From: an archaeon
Lineage (GTDB): Archaea > Thermoproteota > Nitrososphaeria > Nitrososphaerales > Gagatemarchaeaceae
NCBI GenBank assembly: GCA_021819105.1
Contig: JAKASK010000004.1
Location: 53,913 to 103,290, forward strand
DNA length: 49,378 bases
Direction: 5' to 3'
This document shows, in pieces, positions 17,130 through 24,797 of this stretch. Position 1 is the stretch's first letter. Each line of letters opens with the position of its first letter. Under the pieces are notes generated by a model that saw nothing but the letters and a program-made list of their open reading frames with translations, was not told where the DNA came from and did no database searches. Position numbers and translations under genes: made by a program.

Positions 17130-17506
17130 TGTCGAAGTTCATGAGCGACGAGTACATCTCGCAGGTTCAGTCAGCCCTCGCCCAGGACCCGAAGTGGATC
17201 GAGAGCACCAAGAGCTTCAAGACGAGCGTCGCTTTCAACGTGACAGACACTGGACAGAACTACGTCATGGGGGTGGAGAATGGCGTCACTTCGTTCCAGA
17301 AGGTCGCACCGGGGACTGCGGCAGAATTCTCCTTTGACGGCAACTTCGACGCATGGAGCAAGATCGCCAGGGGGGAGGTCGACATACAGTCCGCGGTACT
17401 GAGGGGTCAGCTCAAGTTCAAGGGGTCGCTGACGAAGATCCTGATGTACAAGGACAGGTTCGTCAGGGTCGCCGAGATAATGAGGGACGTCCCCAAGGAA
17501 TTCTAG
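17129..17506 (+). CDS. SCP2 sterol-binding-fold protein
   Basis: A 125-aa SCP2-domain protein that probably binds an acyl-CoA or other lipid. It has V-A-F-N-V-T-D-T-G-Q-N-Y, the A-E-F-S-F-D-G-N-F-D-A-W strand/turn, the I-A-R-G-E-V-D helix and the family's L-R-G-Q-L-K-F-K-G-S-L-T-K-I-L signature near the end. The ATG overlaps the Pop5 stop by 1 nt. Its stop overlaps the convergent DUF35 gene by 4 nt. It sits beside the acyl-CoA degradation cluster, so a role in handing over acyl substrates is plausible but inferred. Confidence 0.85.
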   Translation: MSKFMSDEYISQVQSALAQDPKWIESTKSFKTSVAFNVTDTGQNYVMGVENGVTSFQKVAPGTAAEFSFDGNFDAWSKIARGEVDIQSAVLRGQLKFKGSLTKILMYKDRFVRVAEIMRDVPKEF

Positions 17507-17934
17507 GCTGGGACGAACACGTAGTAGGGGCTCCCTCCCGTGCCTGCCCTGGCTTCGATCCTGAGACCCATCCCCGGCTTCACGGTTTCTGCCCCGACCC
17601 CCTCGAGCCAGGCAAGCACTTTCAGTCCGCTCTTCAGCTGTGCGATGGCTATGGTGTAGGTGCCGTCCTCGGCGAAGCTCGCAGGGGTAATCTTCACGTG
17701 GGTGAAGGTGACCAGGGTGGCGTCGGTCCCCAGGTCGACCCACTCGGACTCGCTCCCCATGCACTTCGGGCAGTCGGCCTGAGGGGGAAAGGATACGTTC
17801 CCGCACTTCAGGCACTTCGTGGTGACAAGCTTCCCCTGCCTCAGCATGTCCCAGAATTCTTTGGTCTTCAAGATCGGGATGTCGAACCTGAGGTGCAGTG
17901 CCCGCCTGGAGTGGAGGTAGGGGTTCTCGTCCAT
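17503..17934 (-). CDS. DUF35 Zn-ribbon/OB-fold acyl-CoA-binding protein (thiolase partner)
   Basis: A 143-aa protein with an N-terminal helix (K-E-F-W-D-M-L), a rubredoxin-like zinc ribbon C-L-K-C...C-P-K-C (about residues 41-58) and a C-terminal OB fold (V-T-F-T-H-V-K-I then G-M-G-L-R-I-E-A). DUF35 proteins form complexes with archaeal-type thiolases and hydroxymethylglutaryl-CoA synthase, channelling acyl-CoA. The thiolase gene lies directly upstream with a 2-nt gap. No HMG-CoA synthase is present in the window. Confidence 0.87.
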   Translation of the reverse strand: MDENPYLHSRRALHLRFDIPILKTKEFWDMLRQGKLVTTKCLKCGNVSFPPQADCPKCMGSESEWVDLGTDATLVTFTHVKITPASFAEDGTYTIAIAQLKSGLKVLAWLEGVGAETVKPGMGLRIEARAGTGGSPYYVFVPA

Positions 17935-17936
17935 GC

Positions 17937-19097
17937 TCAGCCCCTCGACAGGATCGTTACGTAGGCGTAGTGGCCCGTGCCGCCTATGTTGTGGACCAGG
18001 CCCACCCCGTTCCTGATGTTGGCCTGGCGCCTCCCCGCCTCCCCTCTGAGCTGCTTCGTGATCTCAACCGCCATCGAGACGCCGGTCGCGCCTATCGGGT
18101 GGCCCTTCGCCTTCAGTCCCCCGTCGAGGTTCACCGGTATCTTCCCCCCGACCTCCGTCTGCCCCTCGCGGATCATCTTTGCAGCTTCGCCCTTCTTGCA
18201 GAACCCGAGGTCTTCGTAGGCCATCAGCTCGGCTATGGTGAAGCAGTCGTGGGCCGTGGCCACGTCTATGTCCCCCGGCGACACCTTTGCCATGGCGTAG
18301 GCGTTTGCCGCAGCCCTGACGGCAGCCCGGAGCCCCACGTAGTCGTCCCTCCTGCTGAGGTTGGCTGTGTCCGATGAGTAGCCGACCCCCCTGATCCATA
18401 TCGGAGTGTCAGTGAGCTTCTTCGCCGTCTCCTCGGCGGCGAGCACCACGGCCGCCGAACCGTCGGAGAGGGGGCAGGCGTCATACAGCTTCAGGGGCCA
18501 TGACACCACCTGTGAACTCAGCGCCTTCTCCAGGGTGATCTCCTTCTGGAACTGCGCCAGGGGGTTCATGGCGCCATAGTGGTGCGCCTTCACCGACACC
18601 CTGGAAAGGTCCTCTTCGGTGGTGCCGAACCGGTTCATGTGGGCGACGGCGTACAGCGCGTAGTAGGCAGGGAAGGTCATGCCGTAGTTCTCGAACTCCC
18701 ACATGTAAGAGCCGGCCCTTCCGATGAGCTCCACCGACGTCGGAGTGTCGACCTCCGTCATCTTCTCGACGCCGACGGCCATGGCTACGTCGGTCTCGCC
18801 GCTGACGATGCTGTTGTAGGCTGCCTTCACGGCGGCGCTCCCGCTGGCGCAGGCCGCTTCTACCCTCATGGTCCCGGCGCCGCTCAGCCCCGCGTACTCC
18901 CCTACGACGACCGCAGGGAGAGATTCCTCGTACCATCCTCCGGCGCTGCCGACCACCACGTTCCCGATGTCGCCTCTGTCAACCCCTGCGTCATCCACAG
19001 CCTGCTTGATCGACTCGAAGGCGAGCTCGCCCAGGTTGACGTCGGTCCTCCTGCCGAACCTGCTGTGCCCGACCCCCACTACGGCGACCCGGCTCAT
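17937..19097 (-). CDS. Thiolase-family acetyl-CoA acetyltransferase (archaeal/SCP-x type)
   Basis: A 386-aa thiolase of the DUF35-dependent archaeal group. The nucleophilic cysteine is in E-A-A-C-A-S-G-S-A (about residue 85), followed by E-N-Y-G-M-T-F-P, the A-H-D-C-F-T motif, and the catalytic histidine in G-H-P-I-G-A-T-G. The usual C-terminal C-x-G motif is replaced by H-N-I-G-G-T-G, which is typical of SCP-x-like thiolases. It could cleave 3-ketoacyl-CoA or condense acetyl-CoA. Operon order is acyl-CoA dehydrogenase, thiolase, DUF35. A GAAATACG element near 19128 may give it an internal promoter. Confidence 0.85.
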   Translation of the reverse strand: MSRVAVVGVGHSRFGRRTDVNLGELAFESIKQAVDDAGVDRGDIGNVVVGSAGGWYEESLPAVVVGEYAGLSGAGTMRVEAACASGSAAVKAAYNSIVSGETDVAMAVGVEKMTEVDTPTSVELIGRAGSYMWEFENYGMTFPAYYALYAVAHMNRFGTTEEDLSRVSVKAHHYGAMNPLAQFQKEITLEKALSSQVVSWPLKLYDACPLSDGSAAVVLAAEETAKKLTDTPIWIRGVGYSSDTANLSRRDDYVGLRAAVRAAANAYAMAKVSPGDIDVATAHDCFTIAELMAYEDLGFCKKGEAAKMIREGQTEVGGKIPVNLDGGLKAKGHPIGATGVSMAVEITKQLRGEAGRRQANIRNGVGLVHNIGGTGHYAYVTILSRG

Positions 19098-19153: not shown

Positions 19154-20347
19154 CTAGCCGAGGACGCCCATCTCCTTGGCGACTTCCTTCATTATGGTCA
19201 GCCTCTGGATGTCGTTGGTCCCTTCGTATGTCTTGATGATCTGGGAGTCCCGTAGCATCCTTTCGACCTGGCTGTCGGTGGACACCCCGTAAGCCCCCAT
19301 GATCAGCATGGCCATGTGGGCGTTCTTCTCGGCGGCCTCGGTGGCCGTTATCTTCGCGATGGAGGACGCCTTGATGAAGTCCTTCCCCTTCTTCGTGAGC
19401 GTTGCCGCCCAGTATGTCAGGAGCCTCGCGGTGTGGACCGCAGCCGTCATCTCTGCGATCTTGAACTGGACCTGCTGGTAGCTGAGGAGGTAGGTGTCGA
19501 AGGTCTGTCTCTGTGTGGAGTAGTTCAGCGCTGCCTCGAGCGCCGCCTGTGCCAACCCGGTCCCCTGGGCGGCGACCCCCACCCTTCCGTGGTCGTAGCA
19601 GGTGAGCGCTATTCTGACCCCCCTGCCGACCTCGCCCACGACGTTGGCTTCGGGGACCTCGAGGTTGTCGAACATCAGCTCTACGGGCTGGTCCCCCCTG
19701 AGCCCTATGACATCGGTCCGCTGACCGACGTTCAGCCCTGGCATCCCCTTCTCGGCGATGAACGCGGTGATACCGTGGTGCCTCTTGCCTTCTTCCTTGG
19801 GGCTCGTCCTGGCGAAGATCAGGAAGACCTCTGCCTTGTCGCCGTTCGTGATGAACATCTTCTTCCCGTTGATTACGTACTTGTCCCCCACCTTCTTGGC
19901 GTTGGTGGTGATGGCTGCGACGTCGGAGCCGGTTCCCGGCTCGGTCATCGCGTGGGCGGCTATCTTCTCGCCCTTGGCGATTGGGACCAGGTACTTGCGC
20001 TTCTGCTCCTCGTTGCCGAAGAGGAAGATGGGGGTCGACACGAGGTAGGTGGCCCCTATCACTGCAGAGAAGGCTGCCGAGAACCTGGCTATCTCCTCGG
20101 TGGCTATGACAAGCGAGAGGTCGTCCCCGCCGCCGCCGCCGTACTGCTCGGGGAAAGGCACCCCGAAGAGCCCCAGCTCAGCGGCCCTCCTGACCAGGCT
20201 CATGTCCATCTGATTTTCCCTGTCGATCTTCTGGGTCACTGGTGCGAGCTCTTTTTCGGCGAATTCTCTGACTGCCTTCCGGAACGCCTCCTGCTCCTCT
20301 GAGACGGTTATCACGTAGTCTGAAGCCGTGGGGGAAAGGGTGCTCAT
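19154..20347 (-). CDS. Acyl-CoA dehydrogenase
   Basis: A 397-aa FAD enzyme that makes trans-2-enoyl-CoA, the first step of beta-oxidation. It has the mobile N-terminal helices, A-M-T-E-P-G-T-G-S-D (FAD and substrate contact), the K-M-F-I-T-N-G-D strand, the R-Q-T-F-D-T-Y region and the catalytic glutamate in Y-E-G-T-N-D-I-Q-R-L near the C-terminus. The ATG at 20347 is preferred over a start 13 codons upstream because it is 27.5 bp from a TATATA box (20372-20377). Electron-transfer flavoprotein genes are not in the window. Confidence 0.92.
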   Translation of the reverse strand: MSTLSPTASDYVITVSEEQEAFRKAVREFAEKELAPVTQKIDRENQMDMSLVRRAAELGLFGVPFPEQYGGGGGDDLSLVIATEEIARFSAAFSAVIGATYLVSTPIFLFGNEEQKRKYLVPIAKGEKIAAHAMTEPGTGSDVAAITTNAKKVGDKYVINGKKMFITNGDKAEVFLIFARTSPKEEGKRHHGITAFIAEKGMPGLNVGQRTDVIGLRGDQPVELMFDNLEVPEANVVGEVGRGVRIALTCYDHGRVGVAAQGTGLAQAALEAALNYSTQRQTFDTYLLSYQQVQFKIAEMTAAVHTARLLTYWAATLTKKGKDFIKASSIAKITATEAAEKNAHMAMLIMGAYGVSTDSQVERMLRDSQIIKTYEGTNDIQRLTIMKEVAKEMGVLG

Positions 20348-20371
20348 GGCCTCATGGCGGAGGCTGGGGGC

Positions 20372-20377
20372 TATATA
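20372..20377 (-). promoter_or_regulatory. TATA box for the acyl-CoA dehydrogenase-thiolase-DUF35 operon
   Basis: A perfect TATATA, centred 27.5 bp from the ATG at 20347. The spacing predicts a leaderless mRNA. Confidence 0.6.
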
Positions 20378-20399
20378 CGCCGTCACTTTTTGGAGACCA

Positions 20400-20418
20400 C
20401 CCTTTCCGGTGGAAAGGG
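20400..20418. promoter_or_regulatory. Candidate operator: perfect inverted repeat between divergent beta-oxidation promoters
   Basis: CCCTTTCC-GGT-GGAAAGGG: two perfect 8-bp arms around a 3-nt spacer. The right arm abuts the AATTAAG promoter box of the hydroxyacyl-CoA dehydrogenase gene, and the left arm lies about 22 bp upstream of the TATATA box of the acyl-CoA dehydrogenase. Size and symmetry suit a dimeric repressor such as a TetR-family regulator; no regulator gene is adjacent. Confidence 0.5.
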
Positions 20419-20425
20419 AATTAAG
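20419..20425 (+). promoter_or_regulatory. TATA box for the hydroxyacyl-CoA dehydrogenase/enoyl-CoA hydratase gene
   Basis: AATTAAG, centred 35 bp before the TTG at 20457 (leader about 9 nt). It touches the right arm of the inverted repeat. Confidence 0.45.
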
Positions 20426-20456
20426 AGGGGCGCGCCCGGGGCGGGTCTAGAGAGCC

Positions 20457-22451
20457 TTGGAGAGCGCCAGGGTCGCGGTCATCGGCGCGGGAGACATGGG
20501 GCACGGCATTGCCGAGCTGTTCGCAGTCAACGGATTCGAGGTCACCCTGATGGACAAGTTCCCCCAGGCCCTAGAGAAGGCGCGGGGGAGGGTGTCGGCA
20601 AGCTTGGCCAGGCTTGTCGAGCGGGGGAAGATCACAAAGGCGCAGGAAGCAGCGGCACTCTCAGCCATGAAGTACTCCGGAGACATGGCGTCGGCGGTCG
20701 CAGGGGCCGCCATTGTGGTGGAGGCTGTCCCCGAGTCCCAGGAGCTCAAGAAGGCGGTCTTCAAGGAGCTCGACGCGCTCGCGCCCAGGGACGCCATCCT
20801 CGCTTCGAACACTTCGAACATCAAGATCTCCGAGCTGGCCTCGGCGACCTCTCGGCCCGGGCGGGTGGTCGGCATGCACTTCTTCAACCCGCCCATGTCG
20901 ATGAAGCTGGTCGAGGTGATACCCGGCGAGAAGACCGACCCCTCCGTCGTCCAAGAGGTGGTCAGAGTATGCGAGAAGATAGGGAGGACCCCCGTCAGGG
21001 TCGTCAGAGACAGCCCCGGATTCATAGTCAACAGGATCAACGCGGCGGACACCCTCTTCTTCTGCCTCCTCTTGGACAGGGGGGTGGCGTCCCCTGCGGA
21101 GGTGGACACCTACGCAAGGGGGCAGGGGCTCCCCATGGGTCCCTACGAGCTCCTCGACTTCGTAGGCATAGACGTCGGCGCAGACTCCCTGGCTTACTTC
21201 TCAGGCGCCCTTTCCCCCGAGTACGGCAAAGGGGAGACCTTTTCGAGGATGGCGAAGGCCGGGCAGCTGGGGAAGAAGACCGGCAGGGGGTTCTACGACT
21301 GGTCCAGCGGGAGGGCCGCCATCCCGAAGGCAGAGCCCACGGACAAGATATCGATCATGGACATCTTCGCCCTTGAAATCAACGAGTCTGTCAAGCTGAT
21401 CGAGGAGGGGGTGGCGTCTCCCGAGGACATTGAGAGGGGCGTGGTCCTCGGGATGAACAGGCCTTTTGGACCCATCACTGTGGCCAAAGACCTGAGCAAC
21501 GCCGAGGTGAAGGCGAAGCTAGAGGAGCTGGCCTCGAAGTTCGGCTGCTCGATATTCGCCCCTGCGAGGTCCATATCCGAGGGGAAGATGAGGGACGCGA
21601 TCGAAGGCAGGCTCTCTCCGAGAGAGGAGGCGAAGGTAGCGCAGCCAGAGGCCCAGGTGTCGAAGCCCCAGGGCGGAGGAGACGAAGTCCGTCTTGAGAG
21701 GCTCCCCGGCGGGGTGGCTAGGATCGTGGTCAACAGGCCCAGGCTGAACCTGATCAACGGTCGGGTCCTGGACCGGCTGGACGCCATAGTGGCAGAGCTC
21801 GCCGCCGACCAGGCGGTCAGAGCCGTGGTGGTCACCGGAGAAGGCCCGGTGTTCTCGGCCGGCGCCGACTTCTCGCAGTTCTTCAGCAGCTCGGCGGCGT
21901 TCATGGATTTCGCAAGGAAGGGAGCGAGGATAATGAGGAGGCTCTCGGAGTTGCCGAAGATCACCATCGCGGTGCTGAAGGGGCATGTCCTGGGCGGCGG
22001 GCTGGAGCTCGCCCTTTCTTGCGACGTCAGGGTCGCGACCGAGGATGTGGAGATGGGGTTCACCGAGCTGAGCCGGGGGCTCGCCCCCGTGTGGTCGGGG
22101 AGCCACACCCTGCCGAGGCTGCTCGGGGTCTCCCAGGCGTCCTTTATGATCCTCACCAGCGAGAAGATAAAGGGGAAGCGAGCCTATGAAATTGGCCTGG
22201 TCAACCGGCTGGTCTCGACGGGAGACCCGGACGAGTTTGCAGTGAAGTATGCGACCGAGCTCGCGTCAAGCCAGGCGCCGGTGGCTGTGAAGGTTGCCAA
22301 GACGCTGCTTAGAAACGGGACGGACGTTCCGATGGACGACGGCCTGGAGATGGAGGCGCTTGCGGCGGGACTCCTGTTCGCCACGGAAGACCTGAAGGAG
22401 GGGATCTCTGCCTTCCTCGGGAAGAGGAAACCAGAGTTCAAGGGGAAGTGA
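20457..22451 (+). CDS. Fused 3-hydroxyacyl-CoA dehydrogenase/enoyl-CoA hydratase
   Basis: A 664-aa bifunctional enzyme that hydrates enoyl-CoA and oxidises the resulting 3-hydroxyacyl-CoA. The N-terminal 390 or so residues are the NAD dehydrogenase: V-I-G-A-G-D-M-G-H-G-I, then V-V-E-A-V-P-E, S-N-T-S-N-I, H-F-F-N-P-P and two C-terminal helical repeats with G-R-G-F-Y-D-W. After a Pro/Gln linker (about 395-410), residues 412-664 are a crotonase with A-G-A-D-F-S-Q-F and G-H-V-L-G-G-G-L-E-L-A. The order matches crenarchaeal crotonyl-CoA hydratase/3-hydroxybutyryl-CoA dehydrogenases. The start is TTG. A thiolase follows 4 nt later. Confidence 0.93.
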   Translation: MESARVAVIGAGDMGHGIAELFAVNGFEVTLMDKFPQALEKARGRVSASLARLVERGKITKAQEAAALSAMKYSGDMASAVAGAAIVVEAVPESQELKKAVFKELDALAPRDAILASNTSNIKISELASATSRPGRVVGMHFFNPPMSMKLVEVIPGEKTDPSVVQEVVRVCEKIGRTPVRVVRDSPGFIVNRINAADTLFFCLLLDRGVASPAEVDTYARGQGLPMGPYELLDFVGIDVGADSLAYFSGALSPEYGKGETFSRMAKAGQLGKKTGRGFYDWSSGRAAIPKAEPTDKISIMDIFALEINESVKLIEEGVASPEDIERGVVLGMNRPFGPITVAKDLSNAEVKAKLEELASKFGCSIFAPARSISEGKMRDAIEGRLSPREEAKVAQPEAQVSKPQGGGDEVRLERLPGGVARIVVNRPRLNLINGRVLDRLDAIVAELAADQAVRAVVVTGEGPVFSAGADFSQFFSSSAAFMDFARKGARIMRRLSELPKITIAVLKGHVLGGGLELALSCDVRVATEDVEMGFTELSRGLAPVWSGSHTLPRLLGVSQASFMILTSEKIKGKRAYEIGLVNRLVSTGDPDEFAVKYATELASSQAPVAVKVAKTLLRNGTDVPMDDGLEMEALAAGLLFATEDLKEGISAFLGKRKPEFKGK

Positions 22452-22455
22452 TGCT

Positions 22456-23649
22456 TTGGCGGAACTGAGGGATGCGTACGTCGGAGACTACCTCCGGGTG
22501 CCATTCTCTCGTTCGCGGCCGTCTCAGCCAGAGCGCGACGTCTACAACTCACTGAGGATGGACCAAGCCCTGGCGATGCTCATCAGGAAAGTCCTCGAAA
22601 GGACTACCTTCAGACCCGAGGAGGTAGGCGACGTCGTCACCGGATGCGCGTTCCAGACCGGGGAGAACTGGCTCTACGGAGGGAGGCACCCGGTCCTCCT
22701 GGCCGGGCTCCCTGTCACCGTCCCAGCGATGGCGATGGACAGGGCCTGCGCCTCGTCCATGAACGCCGCCGCCGAAGGGGCCATGGAGATCATGACCGGG
22801 AACTCGGACGTCGTCCTTGCAGGAGGGATGGAGCACCTGACCCACGTCCCCTTGGCCAACAACCCCGCCCTCGCCCCGAACACCAGGCTCCTGACCCGCC
22901 CCGAGTACGCGAGATACCAGATGGGCACCGGGTACTCGATGGGGCTGACGGCCGAGAAGCTGGCCGAGCAGGAGGGGTTCACCAGGGAGGAGATGGACAG
23001 GTTCTCCGTGGACTCGCATGCGAAGGCGGCCAGGGCCGTGGACGAAGGGTGGTTCAAGGAGGAGCTCCTCGAGATGAAAGTGGAGGTCTCCGGACAGGAG
23101 AAGGTCATAGCCGTGGACCAGAGCATCAGGAGAGACACCACCATTGAGCTGTTGGCCGCCCTGCAACCCTCGTTCAAGGCCGGGGGCCTGATAACGGCCG
23201 GGAACTCTTCGCCGCTCAACGCCGGCGCGAGCATGGTCGCCCTCGCATCCAGGCAGAAGCTGGAAGAGCACGGCGTGAAACCCCTGGCCAGGATCGTGGC
23301 GATGGGCTGGGCGGGCGTCGATCCGAGCGTGATGGGAAAGGGTCCGGTCCCCGCCTCCCAGAAGGCGCTGGCCAAGGCCGGGATCGCGGCCGACCAGGTG
23401 GACCTCTGGGAGATCAACGAGGCATTCGCCGTGGTGGTGTTGTACGCGGTGAGGGAGCTCGGGCTAGACCCCTCGAAGGTGAACGTCCACGGCGGGGCCA
23501 TCGCCATAGGCCACCCCCTCGGGGCGTCAGGGGCAAGGCTGGTGGGGACTCTTGCCAGGCAGCTCCACGAGACGGGAAAGGAGTACGGGGTAGCCACCCT
23601 GTGCGTCGGCGGCGGACAGGGGTTCGCCATCGTGCTGCAGAGGGCCTGA
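22456..23649 (+). CDS. Acetyl-CoA C-acyltransferase (thiolase II)
   Basis: A 397-aa degradative/biosynthetic thiolase, a different subgroup from the DUF35-linked one. The active cysteine is in D-R-A-C-A-S-S-M (about residue 95). G-G-M-E, W-E-I-N-E-A-F-A, the histidine motif G-H-P-L-G-A-S-G-A-R and the second cysteine in L-C-V-G-G-G-Q-G are all intact. It probably cleaves the 3-ketoacyl-CoA made by the upstream fused enzyme, giving acetyl-CoA. The TTG start lies 4 nt after that gene's stop, so they are cotranscribed. Confidence 0.92.
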   Translation: MAELRDAYVGDYLRVPFSRSRPSQPERDVYNSLRMDQALAMLIRKVLERTTFRPEEVGDVVTGCAFQTGENWLYGGRHPVLLAGLPVTVPAMAMDRACASSMNAAAEGAMEIMTGNSDVVLAGGMEHLTHVPLANNPALAPNTRLLTRPEYARYQMGTGYSMGLTAEKLAEQEGFTREEMDRFSVDSHAKAARAVDEGWFKEELLEMKVEVSGQEKVIAVDQSIRRDTTIELLAALQPSFKAGGLITAGNSSPLNAGASMVALASRQKLEEHGVKPLARIVAMGWAGVDPSVMGKGPVPASQKALAKAGIAADQVDLWEINEAFAVVVLYAVRELGLDPSKVNVHGGAIAIGHPLGASGARLVGTLARQLHETGKEYGVATLCVGGGQGFAIVLQRA

Positions 23650-23654
23650 GCCCT

Positions 23655-24797
23655 TCACTCGACAGCTCTCAGCTCTCGCATCCGTGATACGTCTGCCTTC
23701 GAGTACCCAAGCGACCTCATCAGCGCGCTTGTGTGCTCTCCCAGCTCTGGGGCCCTCGTAAATGGACGGCTCCGCATCGCGGGACGAGACTTCACAGGCT
23801 CGTTAACCACGAGCTCTCCTCCCAGCTCAGCCAGCATCGCCATCCCCTTGGCCCAGTCGCTTGTCAGCGCCTCCTCGACCGTGAGGACCGGCGTCGTGCA
23901 GGTGTCTCTGTGCATGAGCGCTTCCGCCCACTCGTCTCTCGTCCTGGTGGCGAAGACCCGCCTGAGCTCCGACGTCACGCGCGCCCTCTCCCGGGGGGTG
24001 CCGAACCGCATGTGCTCAAGCTCGGGGACGCCGAGGGCCCCGACGAGGTTCCTCCAGAACACCTCTTCGATGGCTGCGACCGCCACGTACTTGCCGTCAG
24101 AAGTCCCGTACACGTTGTAGTAGGGGGTGGAGCCGAACACGAGGCTGTGCCCCTCCTTGGGAGCCTTGCCCGTGGCGAGGTAGGCCGCCGCAGGGATCAC
24201 CATCCAGGAAAGGAGGGAGCCCACAATGGGCACGTCGATGTGAACGGCCTTCTTCCTCTTCGAGAGCGCCCCGACTATGGCAAGGGCGCTGTACATCCCT
24301 GAAGTCATGTCGCCGAGCTGCAGCAGAGGGACCCCTGACCTTTCGGAGTAGCCGAGGGTCCCGGCCATGGCCTGGAAGTTTATGTCGTGGCCCGGCATGG
24401 AGCTCAGCTTCCCCTCCTGCCCATAGGCCGATATGGAACAGTAGACTATCCGCGGGTTGACCTCCCTGACAGCCTGGAAGGAGAACCCGAGGCGCGACAT
24501 GGCGCCGGGCCTGAAGCCCTCGACGAACACGTCCGCGGTGCTCAGCAGGCGGCTCATCACTTTCTTCCCGTCCCTGGTCTTCAGGTCGATCCCTATGCTG
24601 AGTTTGTTCCGGTTGACCGAGGCGTGGAGGGGGCTCCTCCCGTCCTTCGTCGGGGGGGTGGCGCGCATGTAATCCCCGAGACCGGGTTGTTCGACCTTGA
24701 TCACCTCGGCCCCCATGTCTGACAGGAGCATTGTGCAGAACCCCCCCGGAAGCAGGCGCGTCGCGTCCACGACCCTGTACCCGTCAAGAAACCCCAC
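23655..24797 (-). CDS. CaiB/BaiF family (class III) CoA transferase
   Basis: A 380-aa enzyme that moves CoA between acyl groups. It has the N-terminal V-V-D-A-T-R-L-L-P-G, G-A-E-V-I-K-V-E-Q-P, N-R-N-K-L-S-I-G-I-D-L-K and the conserved aspartate region P-G-H-D-I-N-F-Q-A-M-A-G (about residues 130-141), followed by a G-D-M-T-S-G-M motif. Weak start R-A-x in related alpha-methylacyl-CoA racemases makes racemase activity an alternative. The gene is convergent with the thiolase (5-nt gap). It has its own leaderless GTG start, 26 bp from TTTATCC (24819-24825), and probably activates or racemises substrates for the neighbouring beta-oxidation enzymes. Confidence 0.85.
   Translation of the reverse strand: MGFLDGYRVVDATRLLPGGFCTMLLSDMGAEVIKVEQPGLGDYMRATPPTKDGRSPLHASVNRNKLSIGIDLKTRDGKKVMSRLLSTADVFVEGFRPGAMSRLGFSFQAVREVNPRIVYCSISAYGQEGKLSSMPGHDINFQAMAGTLGYSERSGVPLLQLGDMTSGMYSALAIVGALSKRKKAVHIDVPIVGSLLSWMVIPAAAYLATGKAPKEGHSLVFGSTPYYNVYGTSDGKYVAVAAIEEVFWRNLVGALGVPELEHMRFGTPRERARVTSELRRVFATRTRDEWAEALMHRDTCTTPVLTVEEALTSDWAKGMAMLAELGGELVVNEPVKSRPAMRSRPFTRAPELGEHTSALMRSLGYSKADVSRMRELRAVE

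Follow-up and report, generated by a model that had tools for sequence, protein, structure and literature searches.

In archaea, two kinds of described systems come close to the element reported here. One is the fatty-acid switch of Sulfolobus acidocaldarius, where FadR, a repressor of the TetR family, is described as controlling a fatty-acid gene cluster through a 16-bp dyad present at four genomic sites (PMC6449355). The other is the ORB, the box of archaeal replication initiators, for which the consensus CTTCCAGTGGAAACGAAAGGGGT is tabulated (PMC4153887 Table 2, quoting Pelve et al.); according to the report on Saccharolobus islandicus Orc1-2, initiator arginines contact ORBs and are absent at the corresponding positions of non-initiators (PMC9738581). 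Initiators that double as transcription regulators are already known, bacterial DnaA and S. islandicus Orc1-2 being the examples, and members of the Gagatemarchaeaceae are described as possessing beta-oxidation genes (PMC10640624). Here we describe an element between two divergent beta-oxidation promoters of this archaeal family which, judged from its sequence, looks more like a replication-initiator box than like a classic fatty-acid switch.

Results

The window, by which we mean the whole stretch of 49,378 nucleotides that was analysed, carries a beta-oxidation cluster arranged on both sides of a short spacer. On the plus strand lie the gene for a 3-hydroxyacyl-CoA dehydrogenase/enoyl-CoA hydratase fusion (HADH-ECH, 20457..22451; Pfam 3HCDH_N 1.5e-65, ECH_1 3.4e-44) and a thiolase gene (22456..23649; Thiolase_N 8.3e-56), followed on the minus strand by a CoA-transferase family III gene that is syntenic in relatives (23655..24797; Pfam 7.5e-93). 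On the other side, all on the minus strand, lie the acyl-CoA dehydrogenase gene (ACAD, 19154..20347; Acyl-CoA_dh_1 4.3e-38, Acyl-CoA_dh_N 1.2e-36) and, downstream of it, the genes for a thiolase-like protein (17937..19097; Thiolase_C_1 1.6e-48) and a ChsH2-type zinc-ribbon/OB-fold partner of thiolase (17503..17934; zf-ChsH2 2.7e-13, OB_ChsH2_C 1.3e-12). The order OB-fold protein, thiolase, ACAD, then HADH-ECH, thiolase, CoA-transferase is kept at all sufficiently long loci except one (G023). There is no TetR gene in the scanned part of the cluster and no Cdc6 gene among the scanned genes on either side of the spacer. GC skew gave nothing clear within the window that would mark a local replication origin.

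The spacer measures 109 bp from the likely ACAD start (ATG at 20347, minus strand) to the HADH-ECH start (TTG at 20457). Through a tandem CTCATGGC repeat at 20343-20358, ACAD has two possible ATG starts, at 20347 and at 20355 on the minus strand. Inspection of the sequence bears out the palindrome CCCTTTCC-GGT-GGAAAGGG at 20400..20418, with two perfect 8-bp arms and no strand of its own, just as the preliminary description had placed it in a spacer of this length, and a repeat search with the settings used found no other inverted repeat between 20340 and 20470. Its position relative to the promoters also holds: the TATA-like box of HADH-ECH, AATTAAG (20419..20425, plus strand), abuts the palindrome, and the TATA-like box of ACAD, TATATAG (20371..20377, minus strand; TATATA in several relatives), lies 22 bp away. 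Perfect arms of at least 8 bp with a loop of 0-10 arose in 34 of 2000 mononucleotide-shuffled spacers and occur at 18 start positions in the whole window. Thus the symmetry, which had been called unlikely by chance, is only moderately unlikely and by itself a weak argument; the palindrome rises above chance because its core is conserved across orthologous loci.

A search of 31 genomes of the genus gave HADH-ECH orthologues (at least 63% identity) in 20 other genomes and hence 21 upstream regions. The core dyad, TTTCC-GGT-GGAAA at 20403..20415 in the window (no strand), is intact as TTTCC-N3-GGAAA directly 5' of the TTAAG box at 17 of the 21 loci, or in 13 of the 16 distinct sequences; the remaining four (G010, G013, G027, G030) have altered forms. 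Its centre is RGT in 16 loci and ACT in one (G019). Perfect 8-bp arms are kept in only three of the 21 regions (G000, G019, G024), the outer 3 bp being variable. The expected conservation in related genomes therefore holds for the core and fails for the full arms: the conserved unit is the 13-bp TTTCC-N3-GGAAA, shorter than the 19-bp palindrome first noted. In 13 aligned rows, which were chosen for the core and for TTAAG so that the presence of TTAAG in them is by selection, ACC (GGT on the ACAD strand) is invariant although it was not a selection criterion.

The window's own genome (about 65% complete) has a single exact copy of the 19-bp form, and no second copy of the kind looked for by the preliminary description was seen there. 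Exact TTTCCRGTGGAAAG is present once per genome in 10 genomes, each time at the ACAD/HADH-ECH promoter. Multiple fatty-acid targets per genome were considered and set aside with this count, the only addition being a diverged ACAD copy in G023. A large palindrome regulon was likewise rejected, as matches with up to two mismatches numbered 123 in 10 genomes compared with 113 for the reversed control.

The exceptional locus shows what happens to the element when the two promoters are parted. In G023 the HADH-ECH gene lies on contig C109, and C55 carries ACAD together with the thiolase and OB-fold genes, a split seen in one genome, for which misassembly is possible. The HADH-ECH gene retains TTTCCAGTGGAAA, and ACAD retains CTTCCAGTGGAAG, in which both arms are changed with the symmetry preserved. 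Copies are thus found at both separated genes and, therefore, both promoters retain the site. Paralogous ACAD genes, recognised as such by Pfam, add further examples. In G003 and G025 a distant HADH-ECH homologue (36-39% identity) is followed by the element and then by a co-directional ACAD paralogue; in G005 the element, with one mismatch, precedes another ACAD gene, which itself comes after a CoA-transferase-like ORF. The tandem arrangement occurs without the element in three of five genus genomes (G002, G007, G012). In G003, G025 and G005 the element directly follows a TATA-like GGTTAT(C) ahead of the ACAD gene, which is where a repressor would be expected to sit. Conservation, the split locus with both its copies and the paralogous ACAD sites uphold the earlier proposal of an operator between the divergent promoters, and an operator-like function of the element is strongly supported.

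Read on the ACAD strand, the element has the form TTCCACYGGAA-N5-GGTNN with fixed spacing. In the window this is TTCCACCGGAA-AGGGT-GGTCT (20394..20414, minus strand), the GGT or 'G-string' side facing ACAD, and it has the top matrix score in the window. It shares with the archaeal ORB the dyad TTCCASTGGAA, the 5 bp that follow, a run starting with G, and the same polarity. The dyad is matched in full in most relatives, and the window copy agrees at 10 of 11 positions with one centre position off. However, the ORB carries GGGGT after the 5 bp, where the window has GGTCT and the relatives mostly GGTTA or GGTAT; GGTGT/GGTCT strings are present in repeats beside cdc6 in G053 and G054. Furthermore, ORBs come in multiple copies that surround an AT-rich stretch beside orc1/cdc6, whereas the window has a single site in the spacer, inside a divergent metabolic promoter and away from orc1/cdc6. 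Strictly speaking, the element therefore falls short of an ORB, as it lacks two defining features, the GGGGT string and multiple copies near orc1/cdc6.

The resemblance was approached from both sides. The pattern TTCCACYGGAANNNNNGGTNNC, drawn only from ACAD/HADH promoters before ORBs were considered and run on 201 genomes, matched beside Cdc6/Orc1 genes (Cdc6 domains by Pfam) in G053 (three tandem copies, the third of which was seen separately), G054 (two copies), G061 and G027; the matches outside the genus in G031 and G063 share a 22-mer of G061. A matrix trained on orc1/cdc6-locus elements only, with no ACAD site among them, ranked the palindrome first on both strands of the 49-kb window, at 17.6 compared with 13.4 for the runner-up. 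It gave 16.7-23.9 for 15 of 17 ACAD/HADH elements and 4.1 and 1.2 for the altered ones of G030 and G010; scores of at least 16.7 were reached by at most 5 of 472,176 positions of a background that consisted in part of loci fetched for the core. A matrix of ORBs only gave 7.1-15.4 for the nine elements scored, with chance matches up to about 12, and these mediocre values are explained by the replacement of GGGGT with GGTNN.

Two further ORB-related arrangements were observed. In another family, three near-identical direct copies of (C/T)TCCAGTGGAAGCGATGGTGTC lie upstream of a Cdc6 gene (L179:6880-7001) and represent an ORB variant with GGTGT for GGGGT. In G122, ORB-like TTCCACTGGAAATGGCGGTAGA followed by CTCCACTGGAAACG (L193:4919-5020) stands beside an ORF that by eye resembles biotin carboxylase.

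The orc1/cdc6-A genes of the genus have a related element in their own promoters. Of the 16 orc1/cdc6-A promoters examined, 15 have ASTGGAAACAYTGG adjacent to a TTATCTA-type box, the one not listed being that of G007. Across L194-L220 (e.g. L196:2659-2680), CASTGGAAACAYTGG(T) was noticed beside a TTATCTA-type TATA box at nearly every orc1/cdc6-A promoter examined, which suggests autoregulation of the replication initiator. CASYGGAAR-N3-WGGTNW is common to this element and that of the window, and the orc1/cdc6-A copy directly follows the TATA-like TTATCTA in the way seen at ACAD in G003, G025 and G005; it differs in lacking the full left arm TTCC and in controlling a replication gene. Canonical ORBs, CTCCASTGGAA-N5-GGGGT, flank orc1/cdc6-A in G002, G003, G005, G007, G015, G025 and G027; for the clade with the divergent locus (L196, L199, L202, L216, L217), inspection of the 1.5-kb flanks of this gene gave none. 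In the same five loci a gene for an Lrp-like double-HTH protein precedes orc1/cdc6-A.

The joint pattern CASYGGAARNNNWGGTNW had 37 matches in the 31 genomes, namely 19 at ACAD/HADH promoters, 15 at orc1/cdc6-A promoters and three in open frames, compared with 12 for its reversed control. As the pattern was designed to cover both promoter classes, the matches there are partly by construction, and the informative part of the result is the paucity of other sites. Genus-wide, YTTCCRGTGGAAR had 31 matches, compared with 49 for the reversed control; 20 lie at ACAD/HADH promoters and 11 elsewhere. One of the latter (G002 C20) is upstream of orc1/cdc6-A, and 10 fall in open frames of at least 110 codons, which by itself is weak evidence of coding; three of these 10 belong, by eye, to one peptidase-like protein through its FHWK codons.

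Two Orc1/Cdc6 types, A and B, tend to occur in each genome of the genus, a grouping that rests on the Pfam match range and the winged-helix motif, protein clustering having given one cluster. The nearest proteins to Cdc6-A are Orc1-1 of S. solfataricus (2qby_A, E 9e-106) and ORC1 of A. pernix (2v1u_A, E 2.2e-98), and the nearest to Cdc6-B is 1fnn. The winged helix of Cdc6-A reads TQRR...SKGRRGRT, with TQRR in the 16 proteins in which the motif was located (that of G026 was not located), and Cdc6-B has HTQ instead of the RR pair in the 10 proteins located (three further frames were not located). Type A is the natural candidate binder because, unlike type B, it keeps the RR pair that contacts ORBs. 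Cdc6-A was detected in 11 of the 21 element-bearing genomes, a count that includes G027, whose copy has one mismatch. No Cdc6-A was seen in G001 (91% complete), G008 (90%), G024 (90%; a partial Cdc6 match only) and G022 (88%), and the window's own MAG (65% complete) yielded no Cdc6 at all. G011 and G020 share one upstream sequence, yet only the former has Cdc6-A, so that at least some of these absences are due to gaps in the MAGs. For several orc1/cdc6-B genes (L214, L218, L219, L222) the open frame spans about 740-757 codons instead of about 397, and that of L219 contains a stretch, LLGVYLGDGG, which we take to resemble an intein endonuclease motif.

Discussion

Our analysis supports an ORB-like identity of the element. 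The best reading is an ORB-like operator which is probably bound by an initiator-type Orc1/Cdc6 protein; we infer both the binding and the repression, and give this reading a probability of roughly 0.5. The dyad would be contacted by the winged helix of an Orc1-1-type initiator and the GGT side by its ISM. A protein bound in this way would cover the BRE/TATA region of HADH-ECH and impinge on the ACAD promoter at its upstream edge, and the operon would remain under repression for as long as the initiator sits there. The orc1/cdc6-A promoter, with a site of this type, would be autoregulated in the same manner. Such an arrangement would tie beta-oxidation to the cell's replication or ATP state. 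More tentatively, as this asks for somewhat more, the Orc1/Cdc6 initiator of the genus may double as a regulator with about two kinds of targets, its own gene and the ACAD beta-oxidation genes, through a GGT-variant ORB.

One would argue that another DNA-binding protein, for example one of the Lrp-like double-HTH type, recognises the element in the promoters of orc1/cdc6-A and ACAD alike. A 5-3-5 dyad would fit a dimeric HTH protein, and a protein of about 365-400 aa with an AsnC-type HTH is encoded upstream of orc1/cdc6-A in G009, G010, G011, G016, G017, G019, G021, G023 and G027. However, in G003, G004, G008, G022 and G024, which carry the element at ACAD, the best identity to this protein is 30-33% and there is no close relative; the gene is not beside orc1/cdc6-A in G002, G003, G005, G015 and G025 despite the same promoter element; and G003 has the element at both ACAD and orc1/cdc6-A, yet lacks a close Lrp-like relative. 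The patchy presence and the location of the Lrp-like neighbour weaken it as the binder, and we regard this explanation as unlikely. If another protein did bind, a regulator common to orc1/cdc6 and beta-oxidation genes would still be unexpected.

Less likely again is the operator of a TetR-family, acyl-CoA-responsive repressor of the FadR kind, encoded elsewhere in the genome, with the likeness to ORBs being a coincidence. S. acidocaldarius provides the precedent, and a TetR gene is present in 27 of the 31 genus genomes, usually one in each; among the 21 element-bearing genomes 18 have one, although the window's own, at 65% completeness, showed none. On the other hand, TetR genes also occur in element-free genomes (e.g. 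G002, G007, G012), there is no surplus of sites elsewhere, and the orc1/cdc6 sites are left unexplained. FadR of S. acidocaldarius is reported to bind its own control region (PMC6449355), whereas here the positions of the genus-wide YTTCCRGTGGAAR and CASYGGAARNNNWGGTNW matches and those of the TetR genes never coincide. The preliminary description had proposed such a repressor and expected a TetR gene near other copies of the palindrome; with no TetR gene in the scanned part of the cluster or at the motif sites and no wider regulon, this part of it finds no support. That the element belongs to replication and not to transcription, as an origin site that is dormant or of minor use, or as a means of titrating the initiator, is improbable, for although it resembles ORBs and ORBs distant from orc1/cdc6 genes are listed in other archaea (PMC4153887 Table 2), it is present as a single copy, the spacer has by eye no AT-rich unwinding stretch, the GC skew of the window seems by eye to track gene strand, and the element remains with the ACAD/HADH promoters through rearrangement.

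An ORB-like operator with an initiator-type Orc1/Cdc6 as its probable binder thus has to be compared with the known systems. In the literature on Orc1/Cdc6 or ORB paired with fatty-acid or regulator terms, we found no report of a core metabolic operon with a site of the initiator type. The S. acidocaldarius system shares with ours a dyad operator at a divergent fatty-acid locus; it differs, as described, in its TetR-family regulator, its 16-bp motif and the site at the regulator's own gene, no such site having been seen at the TetR genes here (PMC6449355). S. islandicus Orc1-2 is alike in being a promoter-binding protein of the Orc1/Cdc6 type, in that case an Orc1 paralogue that regulates transcription upon DNA damage. 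However, it is reported to recognise ANTTTC, to lack the initiator arginines and to control DNA-damage genes (PMC9738581), and this hexamer of the damage element is absent by eye from both strands of 20380-20430. Bacterial DnaA, which is described as both an initiator and an autoregulated transcription factor, has an analogous double role, with an unrelated DNA motif and in a different domain of life; neither 'fatty acid' nor 'metabolism' appears as a term in the text of the review consulted (PMC8203912). If our reading is true, a link between replication initiation and lipid catabolism could be tested with one protein and one 30-bp DNA, and the genus would offer an archaeal counterpart of the transcriptional role of DnaA, in which the breakdown of fat is tied to the state of replication.
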